Of a stretch of DNA of 5,418 nt, positions 357 to 5,418 are shown piece by piece. Position numbers and translations under genes: made by a program. The notes beneath the pieces were generated by a model. That model made no database searches and had not been told where the DNA came from. It saw only the letters and a program-made list of their open reading frames with translations. This DNA comes from Clostridia bacterium. Lineage in GTDB: Bacteria; Bacillota_A; Clostridia; UMGS1810. The first letter of the stretch is position 1; every line of letters starts with the position of its first letter. The stretch spans positions 1-5,418 of the forward strand of contig JAFSBJ010000084.1 in the NCBI GenBank assembly GCA_017437345.1. The letters are read 5' to 3'.

Positions 357-698
357 ATGAAAAAAAATAAAGCAAATTTTCTTGATTTTATTCCATATTA
401 TTCGCCAAAAATAACCCATAGCGAAAAGGATGGATTAATAACAGTTGATATGTATCATAAAGGCTTCTATGCACGCATAGCCCAGAAAATATTTCGCCGC
501 CCTTCTGTGAGCCATATAAAATTAGATACCTACGGAAGCTTTGTCTGGAAAAATATAAACGGTCAGAATTCTGTTGGTGAAATAGCTGATATTATAAAGG
601 CAGAATTCGGCGACAAAGTTGAGCCTCTTTATCCAAGGCTTGTTCAGTATATGAGAATTCTTTATAATAATAAATTTATATGCTATAAGGAGAAGTGA
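357..698 (+). CDS. PqqD-family protein (orphan, no radical SAM partner in view)
   Basis: A small 113-residue protein of the PqqD family. Characterised PqqD-like proteins are peptide chaperones that present a ribosomal precursor peptide to a radical SAM or similar maturase. The diagnostic part is residues ~55-110: LDTYGSFVWKNINGQNSV, then EIADIIKAEFGDKVEPLYPRL and a final NNKFI. This fits the family pattern of a 'SFVW..IDG..TV.EI' helix, a 'FG....pLY.RL' helix and a terminal hydrophobic strand. Residues 1-54 are basic and less conserved. ATG 357 is preceded by CGGAG at 344-348 with an 8-nt spacer. The stop is 1 nt before the pepD start, so the two are probably translationally coupled. No precursor peptide or radical SAM gene is seen here, so the role is unknown; a function linked to peptide uptake or hydrolysis is inferred from neighbours only. 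Confidence 0.75.
   Translation: MKKNKANFLDFIPYYSPKITHSEKDGLITVDMYHKGFYARIAQKIFRRPSVSHIKLDTYGSFVWKNINGQNSVGEIADIIKAEFGDKVEPLYPRLVQYMRILYNNKFICYKEK
687..692 (+). promoter_or_regulatory. Ribosome binding site for pepD
   Basis: AAGGAG lies inside the last codons of the PqqD-like gene, 7 nt upstream of ATG 700. It fixes the pepD start and supports coupled translation of the pair, since the upstream TGA (696-698) ends 1 nt before the ATG. Confidence 0.8.
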
Positions 699-699
699 A

Positions 700-2136
700 A
701 TGAGCGTTTTAAAAGGCATAGAGCCACAAAATGTTTTTAAATTCTTTGAAGAAATATCAAAAATCCCCCATGGTTCAGGCAATACAAAGCAAATAAGCGA
801 CTATCTCGTTTGCTTTGCCAAAGAAAGAAACTTTGAGTATTATCAGGATAAAATGAATAATGTTATCATAAAAAAGAAAGCAAGCTGCGGCTATGAAGAA
901 TCTGAACCCTTCATCATTCAGGCTCATATGGATATGGTCTGCGAAAAGGAAGCAAGCTGCACAAAGGATATGTCAAAAGAAGGCATTGATTTAATAGTTG
1001 ACGGTGATTTAATCACAGCCGATGGCACAACCCTTGGTGCAGATGACGGAATAGGCGTGGCTTATGCTTTGGCTGTTTTAGATGCTTCTGAGCTTTCCCA
1101 TCCTCCGATTGAGGCAGTATTCACAGTTGATGAGGAAATAGGTATGCTTGGAGCATTTGAGCTTGATGTTTCCATTTTAAAAGGAAAAAGAATGCTAAAT
1201 ATTGATGCCGGAAGCGAAACCACCATCACGGTCAGCTGTGCAGGCGGTGTAACATCAAAAAGCACATTTGAAATTAAAAGAGAAGATTTCCCCGGCGCCG
1301 CCCTAAATCTTAAAATATCAGGTTTGGAAGGCGGTCACTCCGGCGTTATGATACATAGGGGAGGAGCAAATTCCAATTCCCTTATGGGACGCCTTCTCTG
1401 GGATATCTCAAAGGATAATGATATTCGTCTTGCATCTGTTGAAGGCGGCTTTAAAGATAACGCCATCCCCGTTGAAACAAATGCTGTCATAGTCTGCAAA
1501 AATCCCGATTCCTGCAAGGCTGCTATTGAAAAGGTTGAAAAGGAATATAAAAACGAATATTCGGTAACCGATCCTGAGCTTAAAATAAGCATAGAAGAAT
1601 GTGAATATGTAAAGCCTCTTTGCCCGGATGACAGCAAAAAAATCATTCTGTTTTTAAATGCCGCTCCAAATGGTGTTCAGCAAATGAGTTCCAGAATAAA
1701 AGACCTTGTTCAGACATCGCTGAATTTTGCCATAACCTCATCATCTGATGATAAAATAGAATGTGTTATCTCTGCAAGAAGCTCTGTTGACAGTCAAAAA
1801 TATATGGTGATTGATAAATTGTATCAGCTCACCTTGTTCCTTGGCGGTAGTTCTGAAACCTGGGGCGATTATCCCGGCTGGGAATTTAAAGATAATTCCA
1901 AATTCAGAGATACCTTCTGCAAAGTATTTAAAAATAAATTTGGTTGTGAACCCAAAATAGAAGCTATCCATGCAGGGTTGGAATGTGGTCTTTTCTCAGG
2001 CAGAATAGAAGGACTTGAAGCCATATCCTATGAACCCTATATGTGGGATGTCCATACCCCCCGCGAAAGACTTTCAATTTCGTCAACACAAAAGGTGTGG
2101 GAGCTTTTGGTGGACTTATTGAGTGAGTTAAAATAA
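700..2136 (+). CDS. pepD: Aminoacyl-histidine dipeptidase (peptidase M20C, PepD/carnosinase type)
   Basis: A cytoplasmic metallodipeptidase of 478 residues, the usual length for PepD (E. coli about 485). The family hydrolyses Xaa-His and other dipeptides with two metal ions, freeing amino acids after peptide import. The metal and catalytic residues are recognisable: H76 and D78 in QAHMDMV, D115 in LGADDGIGVA, the pair E145/E146 in FTVDEEIGMLGA, D169 in LNIDAGSE, and H452 in WDVHTPRE. The lid-domain motif GGHSGVMIHRGGANS (211-225) is also present. No signal peptide is seen. ATG 700 has a good AAGGAG site and sits 1 nt after the PqqD-like stop. The last ~68 codons (from 1929) belong to a direct repeat with a second copy at 5079-5285, so this 3' end may have arrived with the restriction-modification insertion. 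The gene is intact and should be functional. Metal positions are assigned by motif, not alignment. Confidence 0.95.
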   Translation: MSVLKGIEPQNVFKFFEEISKIPHGSGNTKQISDYLVCFAKERNFEYYQDKMNNVIIKKKASCGYEESEPFIIQAHMDMVCEKEASCTKDMSKEGIDLIVDGDLITADGTTLGADDGIGVAYALAVLDASELSHPPIEAVFTVDEEIGMLGAFELDVSILKGKRMLNIDAGSETTITVSCAGGVTSKSTFEIKREDFPGAALNLKISGLEGGHSGVMIHRGGANSNSLMGRLLWDISKDNDIRLASVEGGFKDNAIPVETNAVIVCKNPDSCKAAIEKVEKEYKNEYSVTDPELKISIEECEYVKPLCPDDSKKIILFLNAAPNGVQQMSSRIKDLVQTSLNFAITSSSDDKIECVISARSSVDSQKYMVIDKLYQLTLFLGGSSETWGDYPGWEFKDNSKFRDTFCKVFKNKFGCEPKIEAIHAGLECGLFSGRIEGLEAISYEPYMWDVHTPRERLSISSTQKVWELLVDLLSELK

Positions 2137-2154
2137 ATAGTTTTCAAATAAAAA
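1929..2154 (+). repeat. Long direct repeat, left copy (3' end of pepD plus 18 bp downstream)
   Basis: This 226-bp segment recurs in the same orientation at 5079-5303 with four substitutions and one 1-bp gap (about 98% identity). Looser similarity may extend left to 1922. The two copies bracket the whole restriction-modification operon. The differences, left to right copy, are G1977/A5127, a C6 tract (2057-2062) against a C5 tract (5207-5211), C2064/T5213, G2121/A5270 and T2128/C5277. Similarity stops at 2154, where the downstream flanks differ completely. This copy keeps the pepD frame open. Confidence 0.95.
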
Positions 2155-2167
2155 ATAATTATTTTAT

Positions 2168-2207
2168 GACAGTCCTCAATAAACAGTATAGGTATTGACG
2201 GTCTGTC
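2168..2207. repeat. Imperfect stem-loop just past the left repeat
   Basis: Left arm GACAGTCCTCAATA (2168-2181) pairs with TATTGACGGTCTGTC (2193-2207) over 13 base pairs, with one mismatch and one bulged base, around an 11-nt loop. It begins 14 bp after the left direct repeat ends. It lacks a U tract, so it is not an obvious terminator. It could be an RNA stability element, a protein-binding site or the end of an inserted element. Confidence 0.55.
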
Positions 2208-2226
2208 AGGCTGGTATAGAGAGTTA

Positions 2227-2259
2227 AGCATATCACATTTATAGTGTGGTGTGCTTTTT
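2227..2259 (+). terminator. Rho-independent terminator downstream of pepD
   Basis: Arms AGCATATCACA (2227-2237) and TGTGGTGTGCT (2245-2255) form an 11-bp stem including two G-U pairs, with a 7-nt loop, followed directly by a T run (2255-2259). It lies 90 nt after the pepD stop and is oriented to end the + strand operon before it meets the converging restriction-modification genes. Confidence 0.75.
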
Positions 2260-2416
2260 CTCATATATGTGGTAAAATGTCACGCAATAGAGGTTAAAAA
2301 ATGCTCTGTTTTTACGGCTTTCAAAGCCTAAAACTTATATGGTAATGGATTTTTATATTCAAAACCTTAAAACTGGGGTTCTATCGTTCCGCAAAATATA
2401 AAAATGAACACTTTTT

Positions 2417-2454
2417 GAAAAAGGGGATTTAAGTCCGTTTTTCGTCTTAAATCC
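2417..2454 (-). terminator. Terminator for the restriction-modification operon
   Basis: On the - strand, a perfect 9-bp stem GGATTTAAG/CTTAAATCC (2454-2446 and 2433-2425) with a 12-nt loop is followed by CCTTTTT. It lies about 95 nt beyond the endonuclease stop. Together with the + strand terminator at 2227-2259 it insulates the two converging operons from each other. Confidence 0.7.
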
Positions 2455-2548
2455 TTCTTAACTGCCATATTGCGAAAAAGAACAGGTTTGTCATGGGCGA
2501 GCCTCGTGTATTTACCTTTGACTTACCTGCTTCTTTTTTGATAAATAA

Positions 2549-3655
2549 TTAAATCTTTCCGCTTATAATATCATTCCAAACTGTTTTATGTTGAAATTTT
2601 ATCGAATCATCATTTTTTAATAGTTCTACATAGTGGTCTATAAATTCTGCTGGATCTTCAACTAACCTCAAATAATATTTTAATGTTGTGTAAACACCAT
2701 TTACAATAACTTGACATCCGTGTATTTGACCTATCCGTTGTATCTCTTTTTCTATACTGTCCCAATCAGCAGAATCCATATTGGCTGTAGTTAAAAGATA
2801 ATATCTATCCGTATTATGTACTTTAAATTTTTCGTATGCATCTGCTACAAGTTGTTTAGTTATTTGTATTTCGTGTTTAATTTCAACACCCTCAAATGCA
2901 CTTCCATTTTCGTTATTTATGTCAACATCACCAATTCTGCCAGACTGCTTATCTGCAGAGTTGTGTGATTCTAAAGGGCATAATATCTTTCCACTATAAC
3001 GAGTTACTTGGTTCATCATACATTGATAAGCGGCATAAATTGCTAAAGTTGGTAATCTTGAAGCTCCTGACCCTGAATATCTGTATGTAAAATGTTTTTC
3101 AAGAACTTTAATAATATTAGCTATCGAAAGACTATGTGGCTTTGCCAATTCAATATTTAAACTATCTCTCTGTTTTATCAACAAAATAAAGAAATATAAC
3201 AATACCTCTTCAGCAGAAACATTTTTTTCTTGAACACAATCAATTATTTCGAGAAATTGAGTTTTAACTTTTGCAGGAGTTATTGCTCCAGGATAATTTA
3301 AGGTATATGGGTGAGCTTGTTCCAAAGAACGAGTTAACCATCCTGACTCTGCCATCGCAGGGAAAGAAACCTTTTTCAAAAATGGTGTAATTTCAGCCTT
3401 ATCAATCGTTCTTCCTGAAAAACCATTCTCCATTTTACTTTGATGATACCTAATATCTTGAGTAGGATTGTAAATTTTATGCGATAATAGAGTTATGATT
3501 ACCGTTATTACCGCCTTGTTTTTTTCAGAATTATCAACAAGATTTTCAATTTTTTCTAATATTTTACTTGCTAATTTAACAGATGTATCATTTGATGAAA
3601 TTTTTGATAATGCTTGGTCGTAAATTTTACTAATTATATCTGTATGTGTCATCAT
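2549..3655 (-). CDS. Type II restriction endonuclease, SacI-like family (tentative)
   Basis: A 368-residue protein co-transcribed with a C5 methyltransferase, hence its cognate endonuclease. The N-terminal half has a strongly patterned block, GFSGRTIDKAEITPFLKK then FPAMAESGWLTRSLEQ (78-113), which I associate with the SacI restriction enzyme family; this comes from memory, not a search. The central part carries a PD-(D/E)XK-like nuclease core: GDVDI (242-246, acidic D243/D245), then EGVEIK (255-260, E258 and K260). The C terminus has a VNGVYTTLKYYLRL block and ends HKTVWNDI. ATG 3655 is chosen because GGAGG (3665-3661) lies 5 nt upstream; ATG 3652 is equally possible at 8 nt. A longer frame from TTG 3667 would overlap that site and is unlikely. 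The gene overlaps the methyltransferase 3' end by 26 bp, implying coupled translation. If truly SacI-like, the target would be GAGCTC, which is unverified. Confidence 0.75.
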   Translation of the reverse strand: MMTHTDIISKIYDQALSKISSNDTSVKLASKILEKIENLVDNSEKNKAVITVIITLLSHKIYNPTQDIRYHQSKMENGFSGRTIDKAEITPFLKKVSFPAMAESGWLTRSLEQAHPYTLNYPGAITPAKVKTQFLEIIDCVQEKNVSAEEVLLYFFILLIKQRDSLNIELAKPHSLSIANIIKVLEKHFTYRYSGSGASRLPTLAIYAAYQCMMNQVTRYSGKILCPLESHNSADKQSGRIGDVDINNENGSAFEGVEIKHEIQITKQLVADAYEKFKVHNTDRYYLLTTANMDSADWDSIEKEIQRIGQIHGCQVIVNGVYTTLKYYLRLVEDPAEFIDHYVELLKNDDSIKFQHKTVWNDIISGKI

Positions 3656-4640
3656 TTTTTCCTCCAAAAAATTGCGTATTTATTTCTTCTGCAACAGCTT
3701 CTATCATTGGAACGCAAACAGAATTTCCAAGTTGCTTATACTGTTCCCCAACAGAACTTATCTTTTTGTAGTTTTCTGAAAAACCCATTATTCTCCAGCA
3801 TTCATTAAGAGTTAATTTTCGCACACGATTATCATTTGTGAGAATAAAGAATCTTCCTGATGTTTCTTGTGATGGTAATGTCGGATGTATACCATTTACC
3901 GAATATATTCTGTTTGGTTGCTTGTGAACTCGTGATAAATGTTCAGTACCGGGTCTTACGCCGACTTTTCGGATTGATTTATTTCTATATCCCACAAAAA
4001 TCAATCCAGATGATGGTTGTTGTTTTGGATTATCTATCAATGTATATTCATTTGGATTTAAGAACTCAAACTCACCTTCAACATCTAAAAACTCACGAAG
4101 CATTTTTCTTGGTAAAGTTTTAATTTTGCTAAAATCAAATTTCCCTAATCGAGAACCTATAATAATTATTCTCTCTCTATTTTGAGCAACACCAAAATCT
4201 GCACCATTTAAAACCTTCCAAGAAACTTCATATCCCAATTCAGTTAATTTATCTATAATAGTATGTAGCGTTTGCCCCTTGTCGTGATGCACTAAATGTT
4301 TTACATTCTCCAAAAAAACAACAGATGGTTTTTTCTCATTTATAATTCTGCATATTTCAAAAAACAAAGTTCCACGAGTATCTTCAAATCCTTTTTGCTT
4401 GCCAGAAATACTAAAAGGTTGACAGGGAAACCCTGCACATAATATATCGTGATTAGGTATTGATTTTTCGTTAATTTCAATTATATCACCATATGGTAAT
4501 TCACCAAAGTTTTCATAATATGTTTTCTGACATTCTGTGTTAATATCAGAAGAGAAAACACATTGGAAATTTTGTGTTTCCATTCCGATTCGTATTCCGC
4601 CAATACCACAAAATAAATCTATAAATTTAATTGCTGACAT
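3630..4640 (-). CDS. DNA (cytosine-5)-methyltransferase of a type II restriction-modification system
   Basis: A 336-residue enzyme that transfers a methyl group from S-adenosylmethionine to C5 of cytosine in its target, protecting host DNA from the adjacent endonuclease. The family motifs appear in order: motif I FIDLFCGIGGIRIGME (6-21, AdoMet loop); motif IV AGFPCQPFSISGKQKGF (69-85) with catalytic C73; motif VI FLENVKHL (109-116) with E111; motif VIII VAQNRERIIIIG (151-162); motif IX KLTLNECWRIMGF (275-287); and motif X QYKQLGNSVCVPMI (300-313). The variable target-recognition region is roughly 175-270 and includes NRIYSVNGIHPTLPSQ. Length is normal and nothing is missing. ATG 4640 has GGAGG (4652-4648) 7 nt upstream, within the end of the regulator gene, and lies 2 nt past that gene's stop. 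The 3' end overlaps the endonuclease. Target sequence cannot be read from the protein by eye. Confidence 0.96.
   Translation of the reverse strand: MSAIKFIDLFCGIGGIRIGMETQNFQCVFSSDINTECQKTYYENFGELPYGDIIEINEKSIPNHDILCAGFPCQPFSISGKQKGFEDTRGTLFFEICRIINEKKPSVVFLENVKHLVHHDKGQTLHTIIDKLTELGYEVSWKVLNGADFGVAQNRERIIIIGSRLGKFDFSKIKTLPRKMLREFLDVEGEFEFLNPNEYTLIDNPKQQPSSGLIFVGYRNKSIRKVGVRPGTEHLSRVHKQPNRIYSVNGIHPTLPSQETSGRFFILTNDNRVRKLTLNECWRIMGFSENYKKISSVGEQYKQLGNSVCVPMIEAVAEEINTQFFGGKNDDTYRYN
3661..3665 (-). promoter_or_regulatory. Ribosome binding site deciding the endonuclease start
   Basis: GGAGG on the - strand sits inside the last codons of the methyltransferase gene, 5 nt before ATG 3655 and 8 nt before ATG 3652. 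It argues against the upstream in-frame TTG at 3667-3665, which overlaps it. Confidence 0.8.
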
Positions 4641-4642
4641 TT

Positions 4643-4849
4643 TTATTCCTCCGAAATAAAATCCATTACATCATCTATGGTACATTTAAGAACATCACAA
4701 ATTTTTTCCAATGTTTCTATAGGTACTGATTCATCGCGACCTAGCTTTGCCATTGCATTTGTGCTTATGTTTGCAGCTATCCTTAACTGTGTTTTATTCA
4801 TCTTTTTGTCGATTATCATTTTCCATAATTTATTATAAGAACGAGCCAT
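4643..4849 (-). CDS. Small XRE/Cro-type HTH regulator, putative controller of the RM operon
   Basis: A 68-residue single-domain DNA-binding protein of the Cro/C1 helix-turn-helix type, close to the small HTH proteins often found directly before C5 methyltransferase genes in Bacillota. The HTH spans about residues 18-45 (NKTQLRIAANISTNAMAKLG), followed by ETLEKICDVLKCTIDDVMDF (45-64), the usual last helices of the fold. It is first in the operon, 2 nt ahead of the methyltransferase, so it probably acts as a controller (C) protein or autoregulator setting the timing or ratio of methyltransferase and endonuclease. The start ATG 4849 has only a modest AGG/AGGCAGG site, with an 8-nt spacer from the nearest AGG, much weaker than those of the two downstream genes. 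Fold is confident; the controller role is inferred from position. Confidence 0.87.
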   Translation of the reverse strand: MARSYNKLWKMIIDKKMNKTQLRIAANISTNAMAKLGRDESVPIETLEKICDVLKCTIDDVMDFISEE

Positions 4850-5078
4850 ATAAAGAGCCTGCCTTTTTACAAGATTTTATTATTTTTACATTATAACATA
4901 CAAAAGGAATTATTTCAATATTTTATTGAGATGGTAAATATTTTTTTGCAATTTTGAACATAAATTTTTCTATAAATTCATAGTTATAGGATGATTTATA
5001 TTTTCATAAATTTTTGTATATTTTTCTTCCTTTAATTGTGTCATAAATGAAAGAGAATATTTTTTGCTTTCAAGTGTG
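4850..5078. other. Very AT-rich spacer upstream of the RM operon
   Basis: Apart from the operon promoter, this spacer shows no gene or RNA. The line 4921-4980 has only 10 G/C of 60. It separates the RM promoter from the right copy of the pepD 3' end. An ATG at 5047 opens a frame running into the pepD fragment but has no ribosome binding site. Confidence 0.6.
4890..4918 (-). promoter_or_regulatory. Sigma-A-type promoter of the RM operon with extended -10
   Basis: Reading the - strand, TTGAAA (4918-4913) is followed by a 17-bp spacer and TATAAT (4895-4890), with TG at 4898-4897 giving an extended -10. The match to the housekeeping consensus is nearly perfect. Transcription should start near 4883, leaving a leader of about 34 nt before ATG 4849. 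An 8-bp direct repeat TGTAAAAA occurs at 4890-4883 and again at 4871-4864, a possible operator for the HTH protein. Confidence 0.8.
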
Positions 5079-5285
5079 TAAAAATAAATTTGGTTGTGAA
5101 CCCAAAATAGAAGCTATCCATGCAGGATTGGAATGTGGTCTTTTCTCAGGCAGAATAGAAGGACTTGAAGCCATATCCTATGAACCCTATATGTGGGATG
5201 TCCATACCCCCGTGAAAGACTTTCAATTTCGTCAACACAAAAGGTGTGGGAGCTTTTGGTGGACTTATTAAGTGAGCTAAAATAA
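5079..5285 (+). pseudogene. pepD: Truncated, frameshifted 3' fragment of pepD
   Basis: This corresponds to the last ~68 codons of the intact dipeptidase at 700-2136 and includes the region of metal ligand H452, but it lacks about 85% of the gene and all other active-site residues. A C tract of six in the intact gene is five here (5207-5211), so the frame shifts just after the HTP motif and ends early. The original stop would align with TAA 5283-5285. All four base differences are silent in the pepD frame (GGG/GGA, CGC/CGT, TTG/TTA, TTA/CTA), so this piece was under selection as coding DNA until recently. It may be the original end of the resident gene, displaced by the insertion. A fused 74-codon frame from ATG 5047 exists but lacks a ribosome binding site and is probably not translated. 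Confidence 0.9.
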
Positions 5286-5303
5286 ATAGTTTTCAAATAA
5301 AAA
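5079..5303 (+). repeat. Long direct repeat, right copy
   Basis: This is the second copy of 1929-2154 in the same orientation: 225 bp, four substitutions and one missing C. Weaker similarity may reach left to 5072 (AAGTGTGTA against AAGTATTTA). It closes the restriction-modification insert on its promoter side. Right of 5303 the sequence runs straight into a long palindrome, unlike the left copy. Confidence 0.95.
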
Positions 5304-5346
5304 GTGTGTGTAAATTAATTCTTGAGAATTAATTTACACACACTTT
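5301..5346. repeat. Long perfect inverted repeat, possible native pepD terminator
   Basis: Arms of 21 bp (5301-5321 and 5326-5346) are exact complements around a TTGA loop. The stem begins AAAGTGTGTG and its far arm ends CACACACTTT. It overlaps the last 3 bp of the right direct repeat. In its original setting it would lie 16 nt after the pepD stop, a sensible terminator position, though only TTT follows, so termination would be weak. It is absent from the left copy, which has a different hairpin downstream. Confidence 0.7.
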
Positions 5347-5384
5347 GGGGATAGGAAAAAAAGATTCAGAATTGTCAAATCGAA

Positions 5385-5413
5385 CTCAAAGCAAGGCTTT
5401 GCCTTGCTTTGAG
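5385..5413. repeat. 13-bp perfect hairpin at window end
   Basis: CTCAAAGCAAGGC (5385-5397) and GCCTTGCTTTGAG (5401-5413) are exact complements separated by TTT. The window ends 5 bp later, so a U tract cannot be judged on the + strand; none follows on the - strand. It may be a terminator, including one for a gene beyond the window, or a dispersed repeat. Confidence 0.55.
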
Positions 5414-5418
5414 CGGTA

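Follow-up and report, generated by a model that had tools for sequence, protein, structure and literature searches.

Phage 21 and e14, which integrate at icd, bring with them a spare copy of its 3′ end. For restriction-modification (RM) genes, insertion with long, variable target duplications of the order of 100 bp is described in passages of two papers (PMC3874152, PMC3031569), which cite Nobusato 2000 and Furuta 2010 for it, and a passage of the first states that RM systems kill cells that lose them (PMC3874152). The DNA analysed computationally here is a window of 5418 bases (the whole stretch under study) from a gut-type Clostridia bacterium, in which a SacI-like RM operon with separate C, M, and R genes lies between two direct copies of the 3′ end of pepD. 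It is moderately probable, in our judgment, that this operon came in a chromosomal piece of about 2.9 kb from a related bacterium and was joined to the end of pepD with a 226-bp duplication. The nearest relative, with one pepD end and no M match, supports an insertion with duplication of the pepD end, which is an RM event of a kind already described.

The duplicated pepD end and the RM operon

The pepD gene (700..2136, plus strand; beta-Ala-His/aminoacyl-histidine dipeptidase, TIGR01893) was intact, with a product of 478 aa. Copy 1 of the repeated segment (1929..2154, plus strand; 226 bp) comprised the last 208 nt of pepD and 18 nt beyond it, and copy 2 (5079..5303, plus strand; 225 bp) was headless and frameshifted by one missing base. 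The two copies were in direct orientation and identical in 221 of 226 alignment columns, the differences being four transitions and the base absent from copy 2, with the indel located at 2057/5207. Identical runs between them measured 48 and 79 bp before the indel and 6, 56, 6, and 26 bp after it. The RM genes were thus flanked by target-type direct repeats of at least 100 bp (226 and 225 bp), and the next-longest direct repeats among the best 20 of 22 families in a self-comparison of the window were 27 bp long at 70% identity. The initial annotation had placed a C-M-R cassette between direct copies of the pepD 3′ end, with pepD whole upstream and a headless fragment downstream; both statements held, and the frameshift of copy 2 was found besides.

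All four substitutions between the copies were synonymous in the pepD frame. Since 68 of the 205 possible transitions in the repeat stretch are synonymous, four of four has a P of 0.012; the corresponding P for synonymous-only change in a neutral copy was 0.036 with three changes and 0.11 with two. Using the nearest relative, L001 (described below), as the outgroup, one change was assigned to copy 1, two changes and the missing base were assigned to copy 2, and one change was left unassigned.

Three minus-strand genes lie between the copies, and their ORFs are all open at full length. The R gene (2549..3667) encodes a SacI-family restriction endonuclease of 372 aa counted from a TTG; P0001, an R homologue at 98% on a 66,445-bp NCBI contig, starts at the internal ATG of R (3655). 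The M gene (3630..4640; 336 aa) overlaps R and encodes a C5-cytosine DNA methyltransferase (PF00145, E 8.7e-94). The C-like gene (4643..4849; 68 aa) encodes an HTH_26 DNA-binding protein and is a putative controller. The GC content was 30.5% in the RM core and 40.0% in pepD.

The family assignment of R was based on homology. A total of 3670 homologues were obtained at E ≤ 0.001, and the precomputed PF09566 (SacI endonuclease) assignment was present on all of the best 120 of them; seven plasmid records matched R (best E 3e-19), four of which are annotated as SacI family. A direct Pfam scan gave a weak RE_SacI signal, below the cutoff, in 1 of 15 aligned sequences (E 0.0064), which was not the R of the window; the latter had no Pfam match at E ≤ 0.001 and no RE_SacI match. 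The recognition sequence of the SacI family is GAGCTC, and its count of zero in the 5418 bases proves nothing at such length. On a Staphylococcus epidermidis plasmid (L080:3240-5360), the R relative was located inside one CDS annotated as DNA cytosine methyltransferase, which resembles an M-R fusion and has an IS257 transposase gene on either side.

The absence of any visible integrase, transposase, or tRNA, stated in the initial annotation, was confirmed: Pfam identified no integrase or transposase among the six window proteins scanned (R itself having no Pfam match), and ARAGORN found no tRNA or tmRNA in the window. Rfam likewise gave no family at gathering score in the window. When other genomes were searched for R, none of the 16 family genomes gave a match (one set, searched at E ≤ 1e-30 and again at E ≤ 1e-20), nor did any of the 391 class genomes (E ≤ 1e-40), and such empty answers, having no positive control, show little about the absence of R. 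The phage collection had no R match either. With P0030 as query, an R match was obtained in 1 of 398 phylum genomes, at 25% identity. Two stretches of the viral contigs fitted a pattern for R, and neither was a relative; a spacer word was not found in the viral contigs, and positions 2137-2600 had no match in the plasmid and phage collections.

The operon would be expected to behave like other restriction systems and to guard against its own loss through the death of cells that have lost it. Recombination between the copies would delete it, and the initial annotation had expected such loss to leave pepD clean. That expectation is borne out by some exchanges and not by others, since copy 2 is frameshifted and only exchanges downstream of the indel at 2057/5207 keep pepD intact. 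Two exchange points were tried by script: a join of pepD to copy 2 after 2100 gave 478 residues with the normal end, but a join after 1990 gave 473 residues with an altered PepD C-terminus. With its frameshifted spare copy, cassette loss by recombination could therefore damage the pepD of the host.

The nearest relative and the flanks of the insert

Five PepD relatives were found in the species genomes, namely L001 at 81% and four others at 42-47%, and P0121, a PepD relative at 97%, was found on a 27,606-bp NCBI contig. Another PepD, P0125 (1,722-bp contig), has an odd C-terminus; it resembles the reverse strand of the same gene and was set aside. L001 comes from a yak-colon Clostridia bin with a genome of 1.4 Mb, perhaps incomplete, and its 4-kb contig carries, in order, a PqqD-domain ORF, pepD, a terminator hairpin, an RlmL/THUMP methyltransferase gene on the opposite strand, and an RNase Z gene. 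Its pepD has a single 3′ end, and M was unmatched at E ≤ 1e-10 in this possibly incomplete genome. The single-copy, RM-free state is likely to be ancestral, since L001 has the single end without M and R was unmatched in the 16 family genomes and the 391 class genomes. Upstream of pepD, the window has a PqqD-domain ORF (357..698, plus strand) in the place equivalent to that in L001; before it, an ORF at 1-300 has a below-cutoff resemblance to the C-terminus of an OPT oligopeptide transporter.

An empty site with one copy of the repeated segment, joined directly to the palindrome at 5301-5346, had been predicted. L001 does have one pepD end, but what follows it is a different hairpin and then the RlmL/THUMP methyltransferase gene, not the palindrome of the window, and the comparison is made at 81% PepD identity. 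Insertion with long target duplication, as proposed in the initial annotation, therefore fits the single end and the lack of an M match in L001, but the exact empty site was not found. Judged by position, with a hairpin directly following AAAAAG, it is copy 2 that probably keeps the native neighbour.

The inserted unit is larger than the RM cassette that had been taken as the insert: the RM genes are inside it, but its edges match a pst/pho locus in G005, a genome belonging to the genus group of L001. On the left, pieces of the non-coding part of the insert (2155..2543) matched intergenic places in G003, G005, and G009. Positions 2343-2543 matched G005:C103:11147-11348 (78%, E 2.7e-37), immediately past the stop codon of a pstA-phoR fusion ORF, and had a second, weaker match (E 7e-4) elsewhere in G005. 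On the right, a match to the pstA-phoR start (5016..5090, minus strand) aligned with G005:C103:12109-12182 (82%, E 2.8e-13) and overlapped the first bases of copy 2; it takes in a start codon (5044) and slightly fewer than 10 codons, where the homology stops. The two matches are 760 bp apart in G005:C103, where they flank the fusion ORF in the same order and orientation as in the window. Each was the best for its stretch among the 16 genomes (31.7 Mb by rounded sizes), with some first-look candidates unscored. The fusion ORF starts as PstA (TIGR00974, above cutoff), and over its final 35 aa it matches, at 63%, the C-terminus of a G009 kinase of PhoR type; PstA is patchy, being present in 4 of the 16 family genomes. 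Because both edges of the insert match G005:C103, the RM core is placed at about 2544-5015, in place of the pst/pho remnant of G005; neither 2155-2543 nor the sequence immediately preceding copy 2 seems to belong to the RM DNA.

The fusion ORF (L015:11346-12179) had no pstC read upstream and may represent a degenerate pst locus or an assembly fault. The left spacer contains a hairpin, GGATTTAAG/CTTAAATCC, at 2425-2454. An intergenic repeat of about 385 bp (L016:9407-9790 and L017:4302-4683) was 90% identical between G009 and G003; with its short ORFs and its segments complementary to each other, it is reminiscent of a type I toxin-antitoxin locus.

Gain of the cassette driven by homology, the mechanism favoured in the initial annotation, was not upheld: the only exact sharing at the right junction was ATTTTTA, which pepD and the G005 sequence have in common as read from the alignment. 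This run suggests that the right joint may have been formed through microhomology.

A dispersed structured repeat at the right edge

The palindrome at 5301..5346, which had been described as such, is indeed perfect (22-bp arms and a 2-nt loop, terminator-like), but it also begins a dispersed structured repeat, of which it is the upstream hairpin; 5347..5418 (plus strand) is the first part of the core of about 260 nt, cut by the end of the window. With 4850-5418 as query, numerous matches in family genomes fell on about 5296-5418, and at least 12 of the 16 genomes matched some part of the query at E ≤ 0.01. Copies of the repeat consist of a terminator-like hairpin followed by the core of about 260 nt with paired ends.

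The structure was predicted from nine copies that were complete enough for the motif script, copies cut by contig ends being excluded; they came from five family genomes (G002, G003, G005, G009, and G012), and L021 and L032 are near duplicates. In the nine copies, 95.5% of cells were paired, compared with 84.5% in shuffles; changes on both sides were seen in 31 of 70 pairs, compared with 16.2; and the covariation score was 0.382, compared with 0.165 in shuffles and at most 0.080 in slid versions. None of 500 shuffles reached the observed value in any of the three measures, in all of which the structure is favoured over the shuffled and slid controls by having been predicted from the same nine copies. 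Further pair types were less clear (58 versus 51.4 in shuffles, 9 of 500 reaching it).

A model of the 5′ domain had hits in 8 of the 16 family genomes (82 hits in one), partly by construction since the nine founding copies come from five of these genomes, and in 45 of 291 class genomes, six of the 45 being among the 16. Of the 14 repeat copies flanked on each side by an ORF of 120 aa or more, 9 were between convergent genes. Of 24 copies in L049-L079, 16 showed a distance of 196-224 nt from the 5′ motif to the 3′ motif and 7 ran off the contig end; L079 was the one copy of the 24 that appeared without a 3′ motif in the search for ORFs inside the repeat. Rfam 15 gave no family at gathering score in the two examined loci holding repeat copies, and its permissive mode gave sub-threshold matches only, some of them on the upstream hairpin. 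A literature search on the repeat had nothing relevant among the best 10 of 160 papers, which is no proof that it is absent from print.

The element is a repeat in its own right, separate from the RM system. Its edge and the end of the pepD duplication fall at the same place, which is suggestive and may be coincidence. A habitual position beside gene-end duplications was considered and was unsupported: 2 of 20 copies had an upstream direct repeat (58 and 277 bp) in the last 350 bp tested, and both of these look intergenic, since the closest ORF of 120 aa or more stops 681 bp short of the element in the first and 309 bp short of it in the second. Upstream DNA of more than 3.3 kb, the spacing seen at the window, was available in only 15 of the 20 copies tested. 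As an apparently widespread structured element without an Rfam family, the repeat merits a study of its own.

History of the locus and comparison with known systems

In the history proposed here, the RM operon would have replaced pst/pho DNA in a related bacterium, its earlier home, and the operon with its flanks would later have been carried to the end of pepD, leaving pepD whole upstream and a headless copy downstream beside what is probably the original flank. The likeliest route would be integration, or template-switch repair, with re-entry into pepD at a point 226 bp upstream of where the break occurred; the same product would arise if a circle bearing the pepD end integrated by a single crossover. 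The data would suit integration by single crossover, repair by template switching, and import through recombination between strains alike. The repeat, the gene content, the single pepD end of one relative, and the collinear matching of the two insert edges to a single locus are directly observed, and three parts of this account are inferred: a single insertion event, the use of microhomology at the right joint, and the ancestral state of the flank beyond copy 2. A more specific version, in which replication stalled or broke at the palindrome of the structured, RNA-like element beside pepD and the RM fragment was copied in from another place with re-entry 226 bp upstream, is distinctly unlikely; if it is true, defence genes would gain entry at such elements in these Clostridia.

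Several observations weigh against the proposed history. The sequence after the repeat in L001 is unlike both flanks of the window, L001 has only 81% PepD identity, and, as neither flank matches the downstream DNA of L001, the polarity of the insertion rests on position and not on sequence. G001, the closest genome, had no spacer match at E ≤ 0.001, and the G005 locus is itself rearranged. The synonymous-only changes hint, weakly, that the copies had different strain or allelic origins, in preference to a duplication that drifted in place.

These same changes bear on two of the other explanations. They would fit an element-borne allele, as in a relic of a site-specific integrative element that carried a spare target 3′ end, like phage 21 or e14, and has since lost its integrase; the whole gene end on one side and the spare end on the opposite side are as such an element would leave them. 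The annotated ORFs of the block, however, include no integrase or phage gene, positions 2137-2600 are unmatched in the phage or plasmid collections, and the block edges match a chromosomal-type locus, which together make this origin very improbable. The changes would also fit two strains whose sequences had been wrongly joined into a chimera, and the window ends within a high-copy repeat, while the five PepD relatives are metagenome bins by title. Identical runs between the copies do not exceed 79 bp, however, and both inner joints are outside any shared stretch of that length; given the longest run of 79 bp, an assembler using k-mers above about 80 would not be expected to confuse the copies. 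We give such a misassembly just as little credence as the lost integrative element. A further explanation, unlikely but less so than these two, is that a larger tandem duplication into pepD came first and the RM block later replaced its middle, removing the head of the second pepD. The left edge of the headless copy 2 does meet pst-type DNA at a short shared run, like a deletion joint, but two events would be needed, and no other long duplicated segment is present among the best 20 of the 22 families of window repeats.

Under the preferred reading, arrival of the operon with its flanks at the end of pepD, both the arrival site and the traces of an earlier home would be readable, in an uncultured Clostridia lineage, and the steps of RM gene movement without a transposase would thereby become testable.

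Compared with phage 21 and e14, the locus shares the spare target-gene 3′ end at the far side, but the integrase expected of such integration is not among the three genes between the copies. The likeness to SacI-family Type II RM systems consists in the homology of R (PF09566 and plasmid annotation) and in the C5-cytosine methyltransferase M; C, M, and R are separate here, whereas the R relative in the best plasmid match is apparently fused. The closest correspondence considered is with the RM insertions with long target duplication described by the Kobayashi group. Their stated features are present here, with the empty site found only in part, and no known mobile-element carrier was seen within the window, in that six of its proteins included no integrase or transposase. 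The locus differs from those insertions in that the insert includes flanks from another locus, synonymous substitutions and one frameshift distinguish the copies, and the right end is at a structured dispersed repeat.
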